Below are positions 9,124 through 61,837 of a stretch of DNA of 63,037 nucleotides, piece by piece. Every line of letters starts with the position of its first letter. Positions within the stretch are counted from its first letter, which is position 1. Made by a program: the position numbers and the translations under genes. Location: positions 1-63,037 of IMG/VR virus record IMGVR_UViG_3300035670_010208. One strand, 5' to 3'. Below the pieces are notes generated by a model, which was not told where the DNA came from, did no database searches, and saw only the letters and a list, made by a program, of their open reading frames with translations. This DNA is from a virus.

Positions 9124-10755
9124 TTATTTAAAATTATTTATACTTGACGAATATGATAATTTTTTTAAATAGTTTATAATATTTCCAACTATTAAAATGT
9201 TTTGGTTATCTATTTGCAACATCTTGTAGACACCATTTCCTGTGGTTGAGTTTATATTATAAGTCGATCCCGTATAGTTTGAAGTCTTAAATTTTATAAA
9301 TTTATTTGAAGAATAGTTACCAAAAGATGAAGATATAGCTGTATATAAACCTCCAATAAAAATATTATTATCATAAATCAATACATCTTTACACTCTCTG
9401 CTTGCGCTTATTATGTTTGTTGTGACCAAATTCCCTGTTGATTTTTCTATGCTTGCAAAATTAAACCTATTAACTCCTCCAACTGAGTTGAAGTTTCCGC
9501 ATATATAAAACATGGTGCTATAGGGGTAGATAGAGCTTACAGAGCCACCACCAGATCCAGTTATTGTTACATTTGGATTCCATGAAGTAAGATTCGAAGA
9601 AGTGAGATTTACTGCCCCAAGACTGTTTCTTGTAGAGCCAGAAAGACTTGTGAAAGAACCTCCGATATACACAACACTGCCGCTGATATGTATGTCATTA
9701 ACTGTGCTTGAAGAGTTCGGATCCCATGAAAACACATTTCCGTTTGATGGATTTACAGAGGCAATTCTGTTTCTTGTAGTTCCGCTTATTGTAGTAAAAG
9801 TGCCTCCGACATAAATTATATTTTCGTTAACAACTATTGCGTTTATTTGTGTACTGCTTCCTAAATTTGAAACGAATGATGTATCTAGTTGTCCTGTAGA
9901 TTTGTTCAATTTAGCAAATCCGGTTCTAGATGATGAACTTACAGTAGTAAAGCTTCCTCCTATGTATATATGAGATCCGCTAATACATATAGCATTAACT
10001 AGTCCGTTCGATACGTTTCCGCTAAAGGCAGGATCTAAAGAAGATAAATCTGGTTTGATTTTGGCCAATCTTGGTACTGATTGTCCATTTATTGTTGTGA
10101 AATCTCCTGCTATAAAAACACTGCCATCATCATCTTTTACAGCTTTGTATATGCCAGTTCCGCCACCAAATGTGAACACATCAGATACTCTTGTGAAATC
10201 TGAGATAGTTGTATTAGCAAAATAGTTTAAATCGTCTAAATAATTTCCGATTTTATCTCTTGCAAAGAGAGAAAAATAAAAACTTCCGGTATATGAAGAA
10301 TAATCAAATTCAGCAGATAAGCTATCTATTTTTATGCTTGAAGATATTAGAGTCAATCCCGCCTGATATCTTGATGATATTTGAGTAGTAGAAAAGTACA
10401 AATCAAATAGGACGTCTTGCTCTTTTGTCCAGGATGGAAGGTTGCTCGGAGAAGATGATATTACAAATTTACCAGAACTATTGGTCAAAAATGATATATT
10501 TAAAATTATTTCATCTTTATTTGCTTCGTAATATGGGGATTGAGAACCAATAGTTATATATTTTATGTTTGTGGTTGAATTTTTTTGCTCTAAAGCGTTT
10601 CTTGTAGAGAAAATTCCGCTCTTTGTAAAGACTAGAGGCGTTGTAAGAGATTCTCCAAACTCATTTAAAATTCTTTCGTTTCTTATGTTTAGATTTTCAT
10701 CTAGTTTTTTGTTTATTTTACTTTTATATTCTGGTATTGGATCGCTAAAAGCCAT
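9124..10755 (-). CDS. Seven-bladed beta-propeller protein (delta-60/DUF5122-type repeats)
   Basis: The 543-aa protein has an N-terminal region of about 190 residues that looks beta-rich and serine-rich, like virion fibre or adhesin proteins. Seven repeats follow, each about 50 residues and each marked by a motif of the type hydrophobic-I-G-G-S-F-T: FIAGDFT, YIGGSFT, YVGGTFT, YIGGSFT, YICGNFN, FIGGLYT and LIVGNII. Between the marks come SG(S/T)TRN and NP(S/N) turns. This matches delta-60-type propeller repeats. The same seven-repeat domain forms the C-terminus of the protein at 22267-24162. It is probably an exposed virion protein. The start has an AGAGGAC ribosome-binding site. Confidence 0.75.
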   Translation of the reverse strand: MAFSDPIPEYKSKINKKLDENLNIRNERILNEFGESLTTPLVFTKSGIFSTRNALEQKNSTTNIKYITIGSQSPYYEANKDEIILNISFLTNSSGKFVISSSPSNLPSWTKEQDVLFDLYFSTTQISSRYQAGLTLISSSIKIDSLSAEFDYSSYTGSFYFSLFARDKIGNYLDDLNYFANTTISDFTRVSDVFTFGGGTGIYKAVKDDDGSVFIAGDFTTINGQSVPRLAKIKPDLSSLDPAFSGNVSNGLVNAICISGSHIYIGGSFTTVSSSSRTGFAKLNKSTGQLDTSFVSNLGSSTQINAIVVNENIIYVGGTFTTISGTTRNRIASVNPSNGNVFSWDPNSSSTVNDIHISGSVVYIGGSFTSLSGSTRNSLGAVNLTSSNLTSWNPNVTITGSGGGSVSSIYPYSTMFYICGNFNSVGGVNRFNFASIEKSTGNLVTTNIISASRECKDVLIYDNNIFIGGLYTAISSSFGNYSSNKFIKFKTSNYTGSTYNINSTTGNGVYKMLQIDNQNILIVGNIINYLKKLSYSSSINNFK

Positions 10756-21787: not shown

Positions 21788-22270
21788 ATGAGCAACGATT
21801 GGACAAGAAATAGCAGCCCGCCACCGCCAACATTTCTAAATAAACCAGAAAGAGATTTTCAAAAACAAATTTCTGATGAAATTTTAGAGAGAGTTATTGG
21901 GCAACAGATCATGTATTTCCCTGTTGATCTAGAATCGACACATATTCATCCCTTGTATAAAGAAAGTATAAACAAGGTATATTTACCAGGGATAAGAGTT
22001 TACGCTCTTGTTGATTTTGAAGATGATGACGTAAAAACTACATCAATAGGAATTGACAGAAAGTCAAAAATTACTGTATATTTTCACAGTAGAAGAATAA
22101 AAGAAGATCAAGAGCTTTATGTAAGAGAGGGCGATGTCGTATTTTACAACAACGAATATCATGAAATAAGAAAAGTAACTGAACCTGATAGACTTTTTGA
22201 TCAAATTGAGTTTAAAGTTCAAGTAAAGGCAGATTGCGTAAAAATAAGAAATGGGATAAATCTTAAATGA
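21788..22270 (+). CDS. Neck/head-tail connector protein, gp14-like
   Basis: The 160-aa protein has a C-terminal pattern REGDVVFYNNEYHEIRKV followed by DQIEFKVQVKADCVKI. This is the E-G-D-hydrophobic-x-x-Y-x-x-x-Y-Y-E-I pattern typical of connector proteins of the gp14/adaptor kind. The N-terminus (NSSPPPPTFLNKPERDF) is proline-rich. Its stop overlaps the start of the gp15-like gene by 4 bases, as expected for adjacent neck and tail-completion genes. A length of 160 aa is shorter than T4 gp14. Confidence 0.6.
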   Translation: MSNDWTRNSSPPPPTFLNKPERDFQKQISDEILERVIGQQIMYFPVDLESTHIHPLYKESINKVYLPGIRVYALVDFEDDDVKTTSIGIDRKSKITVYFHSRRIKEDQELYVREGDVVFYNNEYHEIRKVTEPDRLFDQIEFKVQVKADCVKIRNGINLK

Positions 22271-24162
22271 AAGAAGAGATAAAAGTATACTGTCCAAAAA
22301 TAGAAGATTTTGACTATGTTGTTTACGATTTGGTAAATGAAGATCTTAACATTTTTGCCGACACGCAAACAGGATGGAGAAAAGTTCCTGTTATATTTGC
22401 CTCCCCAGAAGCCTTTGTTTCGTCTAAAGAAGATTTTGATGCCAGAGATCAAAATGGAACCCTTAACTATCCAATAATATCTATTGAAAAAAAATCTGTA
22501 TCAAAACCAAATGCTCATGATGGTAATATGGCTGTCAATCAATTTAACGCACCTGATTATAAGGGTGGAGCTATTCAAATAGCACAAAAGATATCGCAAT
22601 TTTCTAACTCAAAATTTAAAAACAAAAACTCATATAACGAAACAGGATATAAAAATAGAAAACATACACCAAAAAAGGGTGAAAACGATATTTATCAAAT
22701 AATATCAATGCCCCAGCCATCGTTTATCGAAATAAAGTACGAGATACTTGTTGTATCAAACTTTCACCAACAACTAAATCAGATAATTTCTCCATTTATA
22801 ACAAGATATGGAAATATCAATTATTTTTCCAAAACAAGGAATGAGTGGTCTTACGAATTGTTCATACAGGAACAATTTAGCCAAGAAAGTAATGTTGCTG
22901 ATTTCTCTACAGAAGAAAGATTGTTTAAATCTAAAATGGAAATCGTTGTAAAAGGATACATCTTAGAAAAAGAAAATTCAGATTATGCAAATATAACCAT
23001 AAGAGAAACTCCCATTGAGTTCAAATTTAAAAAAGAATATGTGTTAAAAGGCAGTATTGAGGAATATTTATCAAATCCAAATAAATTCAAAGTCACTTTT
23101 GAAAAAAATCCAATAGTAATTTTTGACGCAAAAATTGATGATTTCAACAACTCTAGCAATATAATACCAATTACTATGGCTATATCTGGATCAACTTTAT
23201 ATATTGGAGGATCTTTTACTTATGTAAACGGCGAGAAGAGAAATAGATTAGCTGCTCTGAACAAGTATACCGGAAAACTTTTATCATTTAATCCAGACAT
23301 AAATACAGTATCATCCGGAATATGCAGCGTGAACACAATAGTTTTTTCTGGCACAAACATGTATGTTGGCGGAAACTTCCTGTCATCATCAGGACAGTCA
23401 AGAGGTAATGTTGCTTGTTACGATTCCGAGTCTGGACAAATTAAACCATGGAATCCAAATACTAGTGGTGTAGTAAACACTATATCTTCTTATGGAAACA
23501 ATATATATATTGGCGGTTCTTTTACATCCATTTCTGGGTCTACTAGAAACAGACTTGCCGTTGTAGATAAAACAACCGGAGCATTAGGTTCAGAAAATCC
23601 AAATATGAGCGCTCTTGTTTTGGCAGGAATTATAGATAACAACTTCTATTATGTTGGTGGTACTTTTACAACAGTTGGAGGTGTTTCTAGGAACAGATTG
23701 GCGGCGTTTTCTTTGCCGTCATTCTCTTTGGCCACATGGAACCCAAACGCATCAGTATCTGCTAGACCTTTGTTGGCGTCTGGTTCTTATATTTATGTAG
23801 GAGGAAACTATACAACATTGAATGGAATTTCTGTTAAAACTATTTGTCAAACAGACAAGACAACAGGAACTCCAAATGTCATAAACACTTTTACTTCTGG
23901 AAATGGCAGTAGAAACGCTATAGCTTATGGAAATGATATATTTGTAGTTGGAGATTTTTCCTACTCTAACGCAGGAAAAACAAGAAGTAACTTTGCAGCA
24001 TTTGATTCCACAACAATAACCCTAGACAATACATATAAATACGATTCAGATTTGCAAATATATAACATAATAATAGATGAAGGAAGTATTTACTTATGTG
24101 GAGGATTCTCTACAATAAACGGACAACCAAGATATGGAATATTTAAAGGAATTATATCTTAA
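22267..24162 (+). CDS. gp15-like tail terminator fused to a seven-bladed beta-propeller
   Basis: The 631-aa protein appears to be a fusion. Residues about 1-275 resemble tail-completion/sheath-stabiliser proteins. They include RDQNGTLNYPIISIEKKS, IEIKYEILVVSNFHQQLNQI, PFITRYGNINYFS and EERLFKSKMEIVVKGYILE. Residues about 300-631 hold seven propeller repeats marked YIGGSFT, YVGGNFL, YIGGSFT, YVGGTFT, YVGGNYT, FVVGDFS and YLCGGFS. The gp15 proteins I know lack such a domain. The propeller would project from the head-tail joint if the N-terminal call is right. The same repeat type forms most of the protein at 9124-10755. Confidence 0.65.
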   Translation: MKEEIKVYCPKIEDFDYVVYDLVNEDLNIFADTQTGWRKVPVIFASPEAFVSSKEDFDARDQNGTLNYPIISIEKKSVSKPNAHDGNMAVNQFNAPDYKGGAIQIAQKISQFSNSKFKNKNSYNETGYKNRKHTPKKGENDIYQIISMPQPSFIEIKYEILVVSNFHQQLNQIISPFITRYGNINYFSKTRNEWSYELFIQEQFSQESNVADFSTEERLFKSKMEIVVKGYILEKENSDYANITIRETPIEFKFKKEYVLKGSIEEYLSNPNKFKVTFEKNPIVIFDAKIDDFNNSSNIIPITMAISGSTLYIGGSFTYVNGEKRNRLAALNKYTGKLLSFNPDINTVSSGICSVNTIVFSGTNMYVGGNFLSSSGQSRGNVACYDSESGQIKPWNPNTSGVVNTISSYGNNIYIGGSFTSISGSTRNRLAVVDKTTGALGSENPNMSALVLAGIIDNNFYYVGGTFTTVGGVSRNRLAAFSLPSFSLATWNPNASVSARPLLASGSYIYVGGNYTTLNGISVKTICQTDKTTGTPNVINTFTSGNGSRNAIAYGNDIFVVGDFSYSNAGKTRSNFAAFDSTTITLDNTYKYDSDLQIYNIIIDEGSIYLCGGFSTINGQPRYGIFKGIIS

Positions 24163-50928: not shown

Positions 50929-52479
50929 TTAATTATCTTCTTTTTGATATTCGTATATACAAGCATCTGAAAGAACTAGCATTTTAACAACATTTGCAGC
51001 ATTCTCTACAGCATTAGAAAGACACATATGAACGTCAATAATCCCACTATCAAACGCATCTACTAGTTCTCCTGTTTTAAGGTTTAGTGCAAAACCTTTA
51101 GATGGCGATTTTCCGCCATGGTCAATATTAGCATTGCTGCACAGCCTATCAAAAGGTGCGAACAAGGCGTGTTTCCAGCTATCTAAGCTATTCTGCTCGC
51201 TCATACATGCTAGGGTACTGCCACCGCCTGCAACAATGCCAGATTTTATTGCAGACGCACAAGCAGAGATTGCATCTTCCGCCCTGTGTTTCCTTTCTAC
51301 TCTATCAAGTTCGTTATTTCCGCCTACATAAAGATACACTGCTGTTGATGACATGTTTGTGATTCTATTATGTAGCTTAATTTTCTCTACCTCATCTTCT
51401 GACGACTCTAGCTCTGCTCTTAGCTGAGATATCTTTAGTTCGATTGAGCCTTCTTTTGAATTTCCATTTACAACAAGACATTTCTGTTTTGTCATTTCAA
51501 GCTTTGAACAGAATCCTAAATCCTCAAGTTTGAAACTTTCTGGAATTGGTGTGTTTATAGCTTTGCCAAACTGTCTTGCGCCACAGAAAACACTAAGATC
51601 TTCAACAGCATCTGTCTTGTCTTTTCCAAAGAGAGATGTTTGAATTGGTATAAATTTGTTCTTGTATTTATCATCAGTTGATAACTGAAGTATCGTAGAG
51701 AGAACTTTGTCATCAAACTCATGAGCAAATAGAATTACGCTTCCTGGAATTGCTAACATAGATTTTAACATTGCCATGAATGGAGTTGAATGATTCAATA
51801 CGTCGTTGTGAATAAATATATGACAATTCTCTAGTACCAAAGAATTCTGATTTAGTGGAATCAATTTGCTGCTTGCAAGGCCGCCATTGAATCTAAAGCC
51901 ATCAAGAGTTTCTGTGTAAGAGAGAGCATTTGGTGTATCTTTGATTTGAATCATACCATCAGCTCCAACCTGTTCTATTGCGTCTGCAATAAGATTTGAT
52001 AAAAATTCATCTCCATTTGTAGATATTTTTGCAACATTATAAAGCTCTTCTTTTGTTTCAATGTTCTTTACATGTTTTACAACTTCAGATTTAAAAGTTT
52101 CTAAAAATTTATCAATCTTCTTTGCGATTTCAACTGGATGTTGACCTTCCTCTTTCATTTTCATGCAAGATTCTAGAAATTTGTATGCTAAAATTGTTGT
52201 GGTTGTTGTTCCATCGCCTGCAATTGTTGCTGTCTTCTTGGCAGAATTTCTAACGAAATCAACGCCAATTTTCTCAACCTCATCTTCTACATCAAAAAAT
52301 TTTGCTACGGTATAACCATCTTTTGTTACAATAGGTAGTTGTCCTGGCTGTTTAAGAATTACAGTTCTACCATTGGGGCCAAATGTTTTAGAAACTACAT
52401 CATGTAGTTTTTTGACTCCCGACAACACTTTTTTGTCAAAATCTGATTCTGATACTGTCTCTTTTTTTGTTTTAATCAC
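50929..52479 (-). CDS. groEL: GroEL-type chaperonin
   Basis: The 516-aa protein follows GroEL along its length. It has the equatorial KTFGPNGRTVIL (about 31-42), KDGYTVAKFFDVEDE, AGDGTTTTTILAYKFLE (the ATP-binding D-G-T-T-T motif near residue 90), an apical DGFRFNGGLASSKLIP and an AIKSGIVAGGGSTLACM equatorial return. It lacks the GGM tail of bacterial GroEL, and no GroES gene is visible in the window. Phage GroEL homologues are known in a few jumbo phages, where they can work as single rings without a co-chaperonin. It probably folds phage structural or enzyme proteins. Confidence 0.95.
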   Translation of the reverse strand: MIKTKKETVSESDFDKKVLSGVKKLHDVVSKTFGPNGRTVILKQPGQLPIVTKDGYTVAKFFDVEDEVEKIGVDFVRNSAKKTATIAGDGTTTTTILAYKFLESCMKMKEEGQHPVEIAKKIDKFLETFKSEVVKHVKNIETKEELYNVAKISTNGDEFLSNLIADAIEQVGADGMIQIKDTPNALSYTETLDGFRFNGGLASSKLIPLNQNSLVLENCHIFIHNDVLNHSTPFMAMLKSMLAIPGSVILFAHEFDDKVLSTILQLSTDDKYKNKFIPIQTSLFGKDKTDAVEDLSVFCGARQFGKAINTPIPESFKLEDLGFCSKLEMTKQKCLVVNGNSKEGSIELKISQLRAELESSEDEVEKIKLHNRITNMSSTAVYLYVGGNNELDRVERKHRAEDAISACASAIKSGIVAGGGSTLACMSEQNSLDSWKHALFAPFDRLCSNANIDHGGKSPSKGFALNLKTGELVDAFDSGIIDVHMCLSNAVENAANVVKMLVLSDACIYEYQKEDN

Positions 52480-56283: not shown

Positions 56284-56922
56284 TTATCCCCCTATGATAT
56301 CATCAATAATGCCATATTTTTTAGCTTCTTCTGCGGTGAAGTAGTGATGATGTCCGCCTTCAATTAGTTTAAGAATCTTTTTTTCTGTTAATTTTGTGTT
56401 AGCGGCTATACTCTTTACATACATATCTTGTATATATTTTGCCTCATTGAATTCGTGATTGTTATAGGAAGTTGAGCCGCCTCCTGAATCAAAAACAACT
56501 TCGTGAATCATAAATCTCGTGTTCTTAGTAGAAAATCTCTTCTTTTTGGTGCCAGAACAGGCCAGTAAAACTCCAGCGCTCATAGTTTTTCCAATGCAAA
56601 TTATTTTTATATCTCTTTCTGTTTTTATTAAATTCATAACATCGATCATGGCAAACATGTCATCCGTGTTTCCACCACTTGTGCTAATATATACTTCGAT
56701 CTCTAAACCTTTTTCTAGCCTGTCATGAAGCGTTATTAGGTTTGCAATAAAATCAGAAGATGTCTTTTCGTTTACTGGACCATAAAACATAACTTTATTT
56801 ATGATTTCATCATCTTCTTGTCCTAAAGGTAAAAATTGAAAATTTATATTTTCTTTTTTATCTTCCGTTGTTTCTTCTGTATCTACCTCATCTTCTTCTA
56901 TTTTCTTCTTCTTTGTTGTCAT
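56284..56922 (-). CDS. clpP: ClpP-family serine protease
   Basis: The chosen ATG at 56922 has an unusually strong ribosome-binding site (AAGGAGGTGA). The 212-aa protein has an acidic N-terminal extension (about 1-35), then the ClpP core: VMFYGPVNEK, EVYISTSGGNTDDMF, CIGKTMSAGVLLACSG (Ser115) and TRFMIHEV (His140). The Ser-His distance of 25 equals that of E. coli ClpP. A plausible catalytic Asp lies in the C-terminal third. It may process capsid or scaffold proteins or modify host proteolysis. A hairpin with a T tract directly precedes its ribosome-binding site. Confidence 0.88.
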   Translation of the reverse strand: MTTKKKKIEEDEVDTEETTEDKKENINFQFLPLGQEDDEIINKVMFYGPVNEKTSSDFIANLITLHDRLEKGLEIEVYISTSGGNTDDMFAMIDVMNLIKTERDIKIICIGKTMSAGVLLACSGTKKKRFSTKNTRFMIHEVVFDSGGGSTSYNNHEFNEAKYIQDMYVKSIAANTKLTEKKILKLIEGGHHHYFTAEEAKKYGIIDDIIGG

Positions 56923-56940
56923 GCTCACCTCCTTTTTTGT

Positions 56941-59108: not shown

Positions 59109-60404
59109 TTAGTAAGTTTTCTTTTCAAAAGATTTTGTTGCTTTACTAAGTTCTCTGGCGATATTTTCAACAGGCAATTTTGTCTTTCCGCGCTCGGCAG
59201 CAGTTTTCATTTTTTTCAAAATAAGTTTGAAATCACCCATCTTCCATTCTTTATATTTGTTTCTTTTCTCTGCGCAGAGGTTTTTCAGATCGTTTGGTAA
59301 TTGAAATCTATGATCGGCATTCACTGAGCATAGGTAGATCGCTTTTAGATCTTTCTTTTGATCTTCCGGCTCTTTTTTGAGAAACTCATTGACATATTTT
59401 TGTCTTTGTGCTTCTGTGCTGACTCTTCCGAGTCCCGCCCCTTCTGCTGATACAAGATCGCTACCATAATCAGCACCTGTACCTGTTAAACCACGGTCAT
59501 TCGCAATTGCTGAATCGTAAGCTGCATGTCTTTCATCTCTTGTGTAAGGCTTTCTTGAGCGCTCTATTTGCTCACGATCATCTGTATGAAGACCTTTATC
59601 TTTAGCCTCTTCTAGATCGCCAAGTCCAAACTTTCTTTTCCTCATTATATAAGAATCATCTAATTCTTTTTTGTCTTTAGACCTGTCAGAGTTAGATGAT
59701 CCCTTTTTGCTCATCTTTACAGGTTTTTCATCTTTTTTAGATTTTTTTTTTACAACACCCTTTTTCTTTAGACTCTCAAACACTGACTGTGCAATTTTTC
59801 TTGAAAGAAGTTCTGATACGACTGACTCTTTTAGTTCTGGACCTTCAAGATCTTCGTCTTCATCTTCCATATCGAAATCTTCGTCTTCCATGCCAAGATC
59901 TTCGTCTTCATCTTCCATATCGAGATCATCTAGTGGAGAATAGTCCTTTAGCTTTACAACGTCTCCAAGAGATTTAGTTAGTGCAGCTACAATATCTTTT
60001 ACAAGTTTCTCTGCGTCAACTTGTACTACACTATCTTTGCCCATCGAAGGAGATTCTTCTTCTCCGCCAACTTCTTCTACATCAAAATCATCTTCTAGAT
60101 CGCCAAATCTATCGTCTGACTCTACTGAACCTTCGTCGTCCATTTCATCTTCGTCACCCTCTACTTCCATTTCGTCTTCATCGCCCTCATATTCTAGTTC
60201 TGCATCTTCTGCATCATGAAGAACTTCACCTTCCTCTTCCTCTTCTTCACATACAGCCTCTTTCTTTGGTGAGCGACCATATGGCTTCTTCTTGTCGTCT
60301 TTTTTTGACTTATTTTTCTTTGCTTCTGTAATAAATCTATCTGAGTAATCTGAGTTACCAGCTAGAGTCATCATTCTTTTAACAAAACTTTCATTTAATT
60401 TCAT
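59109..60404 (-). CDS. Acidic scaffold-like protein
   Basis: The 431-aa protein starts MKLNESFVKRMMTLAGNSDY and has an acidic low-complexity region (about residues 45-205) with repeated E-G-D-E-D-E-M and D-M-E-D-E-D-E-D-L units. After a basic linker comes a conserved-looking C-terminal region with NDRGLTGTGADYG and YLCSVNADHRFQLP. The composition resembles prohead scaffold proteins and the plus-strand scaffold at 14376. It could be a second core component. A ribosome-binding site AAAAAAGGAAAA lies before the start, and a 9-bp hairpin lies in its leader. Confidence 0.6.
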   Translation of the reverse strand: MKLNESFVKRMMTLAGNSDYSDRFITEAKKNKSKKDDKKKPYGRSPKKEAVCEEEEEEGEVLHDAEDAELEYEGDEDEMEVEGDEDEMDDEGSVESDDRFGDLEDDFDVEEVGGEEESPSMGKDSVVQVDAEKLVKDIVAALTKSLGDVVKLKDYSPLDDLDMEDEDEDLGMEDEDFDMEDEDEDLEGPELKESVVSELLSRKIAQSVFESLKKKGVVKKKSKKDEKPVKMSKKGSSNSDRSKDKKELDDSYIMRKRKFGLGDLEEAKDKGLHTDDREQIERSRKPYTRDERHAAYDSAIANDRGLTGTGADYGSDLVSAEGAGLGRVSTEAQRQKYVNEFLKKEPEDQKKDLKAIYLCSVNADHRFQLPNDLKNLCAEKRNKYKEWKMGDFKLILKKMKTAAERGKTKLPVENIARELSKATKSFEKKTY

Positions 60405-60458: not shown

Positions 60459-61076
60459 TTAAGACACAAAAATTTTAGAAAACTGTTTTTGCAGAATGGC
60501 AGATTCAACACAAGTAACTATCTCTTGAGTAGAAACGCCAGAGTTCAATTTGTCTCCAAACATCTCTTCGAATACATCGGCTATTGCATCTGCAAGTCTC
60601 ATAGCAAAATCAGCAACATCAACTGTTATCTCTTCTTGTCCACCATAATAATCTTCTTTGAAGCCAGAATCTACATGTTCTTCTGGTCTGTATTCATCAT
60701 ATATTTTACCGCTATCTCCGTAATAATCAAAGTAAGGGAAGTTATTCATATGGCTTTCATTGAGCTTCAATGCTGAGATTAAACTATTGACTGTTCTGTC
60801 CAATGAATCTTCCACCTTTTTGCCTGCACGCCACTGTCTACATGACCAATATCTAGCCGATAGTTTGTCTTTTGCTGTATTGCATTTATGTCGTTTGTTA
60901 AAAGACTTTCTTCGCTTTGGGTTGTCTCTCTTGATTTCGAGATTTGCATCACCATATCTGATTGTTTTTGTTTTGTCCCCAGATTTAGCTAGAACAACAA
61001 ATTTTTTCTTACCGTAACCAGGTTCACCCTTTTTAATTCTTCTTGGTTTGTTTACAGGTCCCTTATTTTTTTTACT
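60459..61076 (-). CDS. Conserved KKGEPGYGKKKF-domain segment in the -1 frame, reached by a putative frameshift
   Basis: This frame is open from 61106 down to 60459 but has no ATG, GTG or TTG before the GTG at 60815, which lies inside the conserved region. The segment upstream of 60815 encodes KPRRIKKGEPGYGKKKF, then AKSGDKTKTIRYGDANLEIK and RDNPKRRKSFNKRHKC, then ARYWSCRQWRAGKK. I recall this domain as widely conserved in T4-like marine phages. The rest (60459-60815) has an acidic DVADFAMRLADAIADVFEEMFGD helix. The upstream gene must supply the start, by a -1 shift in the A tracts at 61067-61085. The fusion would be about 440 aa. A one-base sequencing loss in the A tract is the alternative. 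Confidence 0.65.
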   Translation of the reverse strand, partial: SKKNKGPVNKPRRIKKGEPGYGKKKFVVLAKSGDKTKTIRYGDANLEIKRDNPKRRKSFNKRHKCNTAKDKLSARYWSCRQWRAGKKVEDSLDRTVNSLISALKLNESHMNNFPYFDYYGDSGKIYDEYRPEEHVDSGFKEDYYGGQEEITVDVADFAMRLADAIADVFEEMFGDKLNSGVSTQEIVTCVESAILQKQFSKIFVS

Positions 61077-61780
61077 TTTTTTTTTGATTCCAACATGTTT
61101 TTTGATTCATTTGCTGAATGCTGTAGGTTTACGTTATTATCTTCTTTTTTAGGAGCGTTATATCCTGGGTTTGTAGCTAAAATTTGTGTAATTGTCTGTT
61201 TTACCCATTGTGCAAAACCAGAATCTCCCTTTTGTTTATACACTTTTAAAACATTCTGCCAATTGTTCTTAATTGTGCTCTTGTATGAATTACAAAGTTT
61301 GCCTAGTCTAAACTGATCGTCACTATTCAAAGATTCACCGCTCTCGCCCCTCATACTCAACATCAGTTTTTTACAAACTTCAGTAATATTTTTTTCTGCC
61401 ACACGTTCAAAAGCGTCGATTCCATGTCGTTTTTTATAATCTTCACGCTGACTATTGTTCATTCCGCCAGCTCCACTATCTCCTGCTCCTGGTTGAATTT
61501 CGACTGGTCTATATTTTTGAGCTTCTTGTTTAGAAAATCCACCGTAATTAACAAGATCGTACCAATCATTAGTTTGAATTATTGCGTATTCAATAGTGGC
61601 TCTTGCTAATTCTTTATCTAGATCGACATCTTTCTGAGATCTTGATTGTGAAGATTGGTGCCTTGGAAAATCAAAACCATCGCCTTCTTTTACCATTCTT
61701 TTATCGAAAGATTCCTTTAGGTGATCAATCTTTGCGATTCTCATGAACTTTTCTACTAATAATTTATCAACTTTTGACAT
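61052..61780 (-). CDS. Hypothetical protein, zero-frame product upstream of the putative frameshift
   Basis: The chosen ATG at 61780 (MSKVDKLLVEKFMRIA) has GGAGAGGG upstream. The longer frame from 61798 adds six residues that overlap this ribosome-binding site. The 242-aa zero-frame protein has a helical N-terminus (MRIAKIDHLKESFDKRM), a glycine/serine-rich middle (GAGDSGAGGMNNSQRED) and a helical C-terminal part with QFRLGKLCNSYKSTIKNNW. It ends in a lysine-rich run at the slippery A tracts. With the shift it joins the conserved domain at 60459-61076. Its place among head-type genes suggests a head protein. Confidence 0.65.
   Translation of the reverse strand: MSKVDKLLVEKFMRIAKIDHLKESFDKRMVKEGDGFDFPRHQSSQSRSQKDVDLDKELARATIEYAIIQTNDWYDLVNYGGFSKQEAQKYRPVEIQPGAGDSGAGGMNNSQREDYKKRHGIDAFERVAEKNITEVCKKLMLSMRGESGESLNSDDQFRLGKLCNSYKSTIKNNWQNVLKVYKQKGDSGFAQWVKQTITQILATNPGYNAPKKEDNNVNLQHSANESKNMLESKKKVKKIRDL
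61067..61085 (-). promoter_or_regulatory. Candidate -1 frameshift site in A tracts (A_AAA_AAA)
   Basis: On the minus strand the zero frame reads TCA AAA AAA AAA GTA AAA AAA ATA AGG GAC CTG TAA. A_AAA_AAA heptamers occur at 61085-61079, 61082-61076 and 61073-61067. All are in phase for a -1 shift into the start-less conserved frame. The zero-frame stop follows 12-20 bases later. Confidence 0.55.
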
Positions 61781-61837
61781 TTGTAATTCCCTCTCCATTT
61801 AATTATTATAATTTATAACATAATTAAATATAATTAT

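Follow-up and report, generated by a model that had tools for sequence, protein, structure and literature searches.

How is a conserved protein domain produced when its reading frame has no start codon in front of it? This question is raised by a locus near one end of the window, that is, the whole 63,037-nucleotide stretch of phage DNA analyzed here (IMG/VR record IMGVR_UViG_3300035670_010208). Two frames on the minus strand overlap in an A-rich stretch, and the downstream frame is offset by -1 relative to the upstream ORF. The features of the locus are as follows.

61052-61780, minus strand: upstream (zero) frame, the N-terminal part of 242 aa; an ORF with coding signal and a Shine-Dalgarno-like GAGAGGGA before ATG 61780.
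61076-61085, minus strand: A10 homopolymer, part of the Lys-rich linker and probable site of a slip or indel; contains two in-phase A_AAA_AAA.
61066-61073, minus strand: A8 homopolymer with a third in-phase A_AAA_AAA.
61052-61054, minus strand: zero-frame stop TAA.
60459-61106, minus strand: -1 frame, open for 215 codons, without a standard start upstream of 60815.
60831-61052, minus strand: conserved phage domain phrog_7595 (residues 13-86 of the frame's translation, P0001), assigned by profile match and relatives.
60462-60815, minus strand: C-terminal part from the first standard start (GTG 60815), with coding signal.

The downstream frame extends from 61106 to the TAA at 60461-60459 and reads IKKHVGIKKKSKKNKGPVNKPRRIKKGEPGYGKKKF... 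Its first ATG, GTG or TTG is GTG 60815, and a start there would omit the domain because this codon lies just past the domain end. The upstream ORF terminates with the codons TCA AAA AAA AAA GTA AAA AAA ATA AGG GAC CTG TAA, and the in-phase A_AAA_AAA heptamers are found at its codons 232, 233, and 236. An earlier note on this DNA had described the open -1 frame without a start before GTG 60815, and re-examination of the ORFs confirmed both this frame and its coordinates. The three in-phase heptamers, the -1 offset, and the end of the zero frame within the A-rich stretch were likewise all found as claimed. Read in the downstream frame, the A-rich stretch gives a natural linker, KKKSKKNKGPVNKPRR, which resembles VVKKKSKKDEKPV of the neighboring gene (59109-60404). 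The joined product of the two frames, computed from the sequence, would be about 440 aa. Peptides specific to such a fusion would span SKKNKGPVNKPRR, as opposed to the C-terminal peptides of the 242-aa form.

The neighboring gene (59109-60404, minus strand) encodes a 431-aa protein whose first half is highly acidic. It has an in-frame A10 at 59742-59751 and a Lys-rich linker resembling the one in the split gene. Related-looking short motifs (MKLNESFVKRMMTLAG, LKLNESHMNNFP, and LKESFDKRMV) recur in 59109-60404, 60459-61106, and 61052-61798, all on the minus strand. They may represent segments of virion proteins with a targeting or propeptide-like role.

Coding potential was followed along both frames with a codon-usage score trained on the other genes of the phage. 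The signal stays positive over almost the whole upstream ORF, then changes frame at the A stretch. In the downstream frame it is positive over most of the length and weak only at about 60960-60750. In a six-frame scan of the contig, a long coding stretch (97 codons, log-odds +18.3) precedes the first start of this frame, and no other strong coding frame has one there; the other genes have a start codon at or near the beginning of their frames. The remaining high values in the scan come from shadow frames, short and low in score, that lie opposite real genes or overlap them. The broken frame is more than chance.

The downstream frame had been claimed to encode a conserved phage domain, and this holds. 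Residues 3-86 of P0001 match positions 8-96 of the 96-position phrog_7595 profile (E = 1.5e-15; annotated function unknown), and the region ahead of the GTG is the conserved core of the family. The domain spans residues 13-86 (NKPRRIKKGEPGYG...RYWSCRQW). Pfam DUF5754 (PF19058) was rejected as a candidate, its 11.3 bits being far under the curated cut-off of 27.4 bits. A pattern scan of IMG/VR gave 457 related stretches and two further scans each list at least about 600; the domain is present in hundreds of aquatic phage contigs. It is also found in 44 phage records, including Pelagibacter, Roseobacter, Methylophilales, Synechococcus, and Flavobacterium phages. The window shares this conserved domain with phrog_7595 proteins such as AGE60465.1 of Pelagibacter phage HTVC008M and gp67 of Roseobacter phage CRP-901, the latter annotated as 'HVA1 family protein'. 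Across 22 diverse copies 28 positions are invariant. For the domain AlphaFold predicts, with fair confidence, two strands followed by helices, and the model is of no use outside it (mean pLDDT 56 over 209 residues; blocks of residues 11-90 at 66-91). A PDB search with the predicted model gave no significant match, and the significant structure matches are viral models only, covering the same domain. In three relatives (L037, L061, and L075) the domain gene lies within a few kb of a major capsid protein gene similar to that of the window, a hint of a head-related role for the domain.

How is the domain encoded in its relatives? After removal of duplicates, 170 distinct domain loci were compared. 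All 170 have a standard in-frame start codon. Most of them encode the domain as a stand-alone protein with about 3-45 extra residues at the N-terminus; in 30 of the 170 the N-terminal part exceeds 45 residues and can reach several hundred. In L182, L189, L190, L191, and L197, the domain is joined in one frame through a Lys-rich linker. In L190 and L191, for example, DEKKKKKKSAKDRMKC is followed by NSSRRIRKGEAG, with similar linkers in L182, L189, and L197; in fused relatives DEKKKKKKSAKDRMKC leads into NSSRRIRKGE. Fusion of the domain behind an in-frame Lys-rich linker is therefore a normal architecture. This bears out the view of the earlier note that the two frames are one gene with the A stretch as its junction. 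In the comparison of related genomes that it had proposed, the domain stands in a single frame in 170 of 170 loci, and a shared break is found in none. The linkers of the relatives have A-runs of at most 7 because AAA and AAG codons are mixed, whereas the linker of the split gene consists almost entirely of AAA. To judge from these sequences, the frame break appears to be private to this contig; none of the 170 domain loci shares it, and no homologue of the whole gene was found for comparison.

The same five fused relatives carry the domain at the end of a multi-part basic protein with several small domains, in which short amphipathic stretches (such as LEEIVKEELEAVLDE) and poly-Lys linkers are repeated. 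All PHROG matches of L190 are of unknown function. The N-terminal parts of the fused relatives have no resemblance to the upstream ORF of the window (best phmmer E = 0.36). In the phrog_7595 relatives examined, the domain has its own start or is part of a one-frame fusion; the window has in addition N- and C-terminal parts for which no relatives are known. For the upstream 242-aa ORF, peptide patterns, which reach close relatives only, found none in IMG/VR; there are none in INPHARED by tblastn, and none in PHROGs, Pfam, or NCBIfam. The C-terminal part likewise has no IMG/VR relatives by peptide patterns, with the same reach. An exact-flank scan found no second copy of the locus in the collection that could show another run length, as a phase-variable locus (slipped-strand mispairing) would, and the collections searched may omit records very near the window's own. 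Kin of the phage were sought through the neighboring 707-aa protein and the major capsid protein, and no IMG/VR locus was found; isolates with a similar capsid protein are far removed, at about 26-47% identity for the best of the matches listed.

Several other genes of the contig can be assigned. A GroEL-like chaperonin (phrog_5725; Pfam Cpn60_TCP1) is encoded at 50929-52479 on the minus strand, and a ClpP-like protease, with further matches to head maturation protease families, at 56284-56928 on the minus strand. An IMP dehydrogenase/GMP reductase-type enzyme is found at the contig edge (62124-63014, minus strand). phrog_5490 is matched by two proteins (22267-24162, plus strand, and 9124-10755, minus strand), the former of which also matches the beta-propeller domain DUF5122.

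The A-runs of the phage were examined with synonymous shuffles within genes (50 genes of at least 100 aa, the split gene left out). A-runs of 9 or more inside genes number 2, against 8.9 +/- 2.1 expected, and none of 1000 shuffles is as low; runs of 5-8 are as frequent as expected or more so. There are not enough T-runs for a control of this test. The scarcity of long runs fits slippage of DNA or RNA polymerase at such tracts, and the depletion is read as selection against slippage at the DNA or RNA level. The other intragenic A-runs of 8 or more lie in intact frames, including the second A10 at 59742-59751 in the next gene.

The best explanation of the locus, with a probability of roughly 0.55, is an indel in a slip-prone A-tract, either an error of the assembled consensus or a real length variant in this phage. 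This figure and the grades of the other readings are judgements and not computed probabilities. There would be one gene encoding one protein of about 440 aa, with an N-terminal region without known relatives, a Lys-rich linker, the conserved basic domain, and a C-terminal region without known relatives, in this order. The ancestral gene would have been in one frame, and the length of the tract would have been altered by slippage. This gene would be split where one base was gained or lost in the A-rich linker, the A10 being the most likely site; the change would be either a consensus error or a real, probably recent, length variant of the slip-prone tract. With a genuine A10 in the phage, polymerase slippage would still be expected to give some mRNA in the correct frame. 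The break falls precisely within a tract of the kind most prone to slip and is shared by no relative, and frame breaks that are not clustered are usually indels or sequencing errors (PMC3711429). Against an indel, there is no other comparable break among the strong coding frames of the 63-kb contig, and in both halves the coding signal is strong and shows no decay. Apart from this locus the contig is clean, and its other long intragenic A-runs lie in intact frames; therefore a random assembly error is not especially likely. The one-base error in A-run length, which the earlier note had given as its own alternative, remains the leading single reading.

That note preferred a programmed -1 shift of the ribosome at the three A_AAA_AAA heptamers, which would yield both the 242-aa protein and a fusion product of about 440 aa. 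The locus does share an in-phase slippery heptamer, a -1 offset, and overlapping frames with the A_AAA_AAG-type -1 frameshifting of IS elements (PMC4066793), and the zero-frame stop follows soon after the three heptamers in the overlap. Unlike the IS-type cases, it lacks a stimulatory structure and a Shine-Dalgarno-like element, and shows no conserved frame pairing in the relatives examined. Many unshifted genes of the phage contain the heptamer as well. In phase, A_AAA_AAA has 39 copies in 23 of the 50 other genes, about equal to the 38 and 30 copies in the other two phases. With this gene included, the in-phase number (42) is only slightly lower than in synonymous shuffles (52.5). The heptamers are ordinary in this phage. 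In the RNA directly downstream no stimulatory structure is found; it is less stable than shuffled sequences (z = +1.75 and +1.30). No Rfam element matches at the locus, and no suitably spaced Shine-Dalgarno-like stimulator is found, only a GGA directly adjoining the tract. In E. coli, heptamers without stimulators are weak, shifting at no more than about 10 times a background of 0.055% (PMC4066793). With no relative among the 170 requiring a shift, and no sign of conservation, the claim that A_AAA_AAA acts here as an efficient programmed -1 signal is not supported. The locus is probably not a conserved programmed ribosomal frameshift, and programmed ribosomal frameshifting as such is improbable.

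The main rival of an indel is functional transcriptional slippage, which fits the sequence better than ribosomal frameshifting. The A10 would be fixed in the genome and RNA polymerase would add or drop A's, so that some mRNAs reach the domain and the rest yield the 242-aa protein. The A10 (61085-61076) has the run length of a transcriptional slippage gene (about 9 or more before a zero-frame stop), and by the precedent of spa13 and tssM1 its length suffices. It is reported that spa13 has an A10 (PMC6260861) and slips at 55% (PMC4256274) or 25-30% (review, PMC5009743), and that tssM1 with its A11 slips at about 20-25% (PMC4256274). Such A10 and A11 tracts slip at tens of percent without stimulators (PMC4256274, PMC6260861, PMC5009743). 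The window resembles tssM1 of Citrobacter rodentium (PMC4256274), a gene cut by a stop soon after a long A-run: the missing domain is intact in another frame and ribosomal stimulators, which slippage does not need, are absent. For tssM1, slippage is documented by RNA mass spectrometry, by reporters, and at the protein level (PMC4256274). The avoidance of A-runs of 9 or more in the other genes, the absence of comparable breaks from the rest of the contig, and the coding signal kept in both frames are also in favor. On the other side, slippage is also found in Yersinia tssM3 (PMC4256274), but no relative shares the split of the window, where an assembly indel may be the cause. In addition, a second A10 is in frame in the next gene, so an A10 per se marks no switch. 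Functional slippage is a tentative reading, less likely than the indel. It is more doubtful still that polymerase slippage at the A10 sets a fixed ratio of short and fusion proteins, with A-runs of 9 or more avoided elsewhere because they are slip-prone.

Could the two frames be separate genes? The second would begin at a non-standard codon (such as ATC) in the overlap, or by re-initiation near the upstream stop, and in most relatives the domain is indeed a stand-alone protein with a short N-terminus. The stretch needed has no ATG, GTG or TTG, however, and the candidate ATC codons lack a well-placed Shine-Dalgarno-like sequence. Since there is no ribosome-binding site and every relative examined uses a standard start, non-AUG initiation is set aside, and two separate genes are very improbable.

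Whether an indel in the A-tract or slippage of the polymerase is at work, the phenomenon is of a known kind. If the tract is real and used, this would be a phage case of transcriptional slippage giving two forms of one protein; the known cases come mainly from secretion systems, insertion sequences, and endosymbionts. If the preferred indel is the cause, gene callers would hide such joined genes in metagenomic phages, and long A-runs would be weak points of AT-rich phage genomes. The test for scarcity of long A-runs (9 or more) can be extended to many phages.
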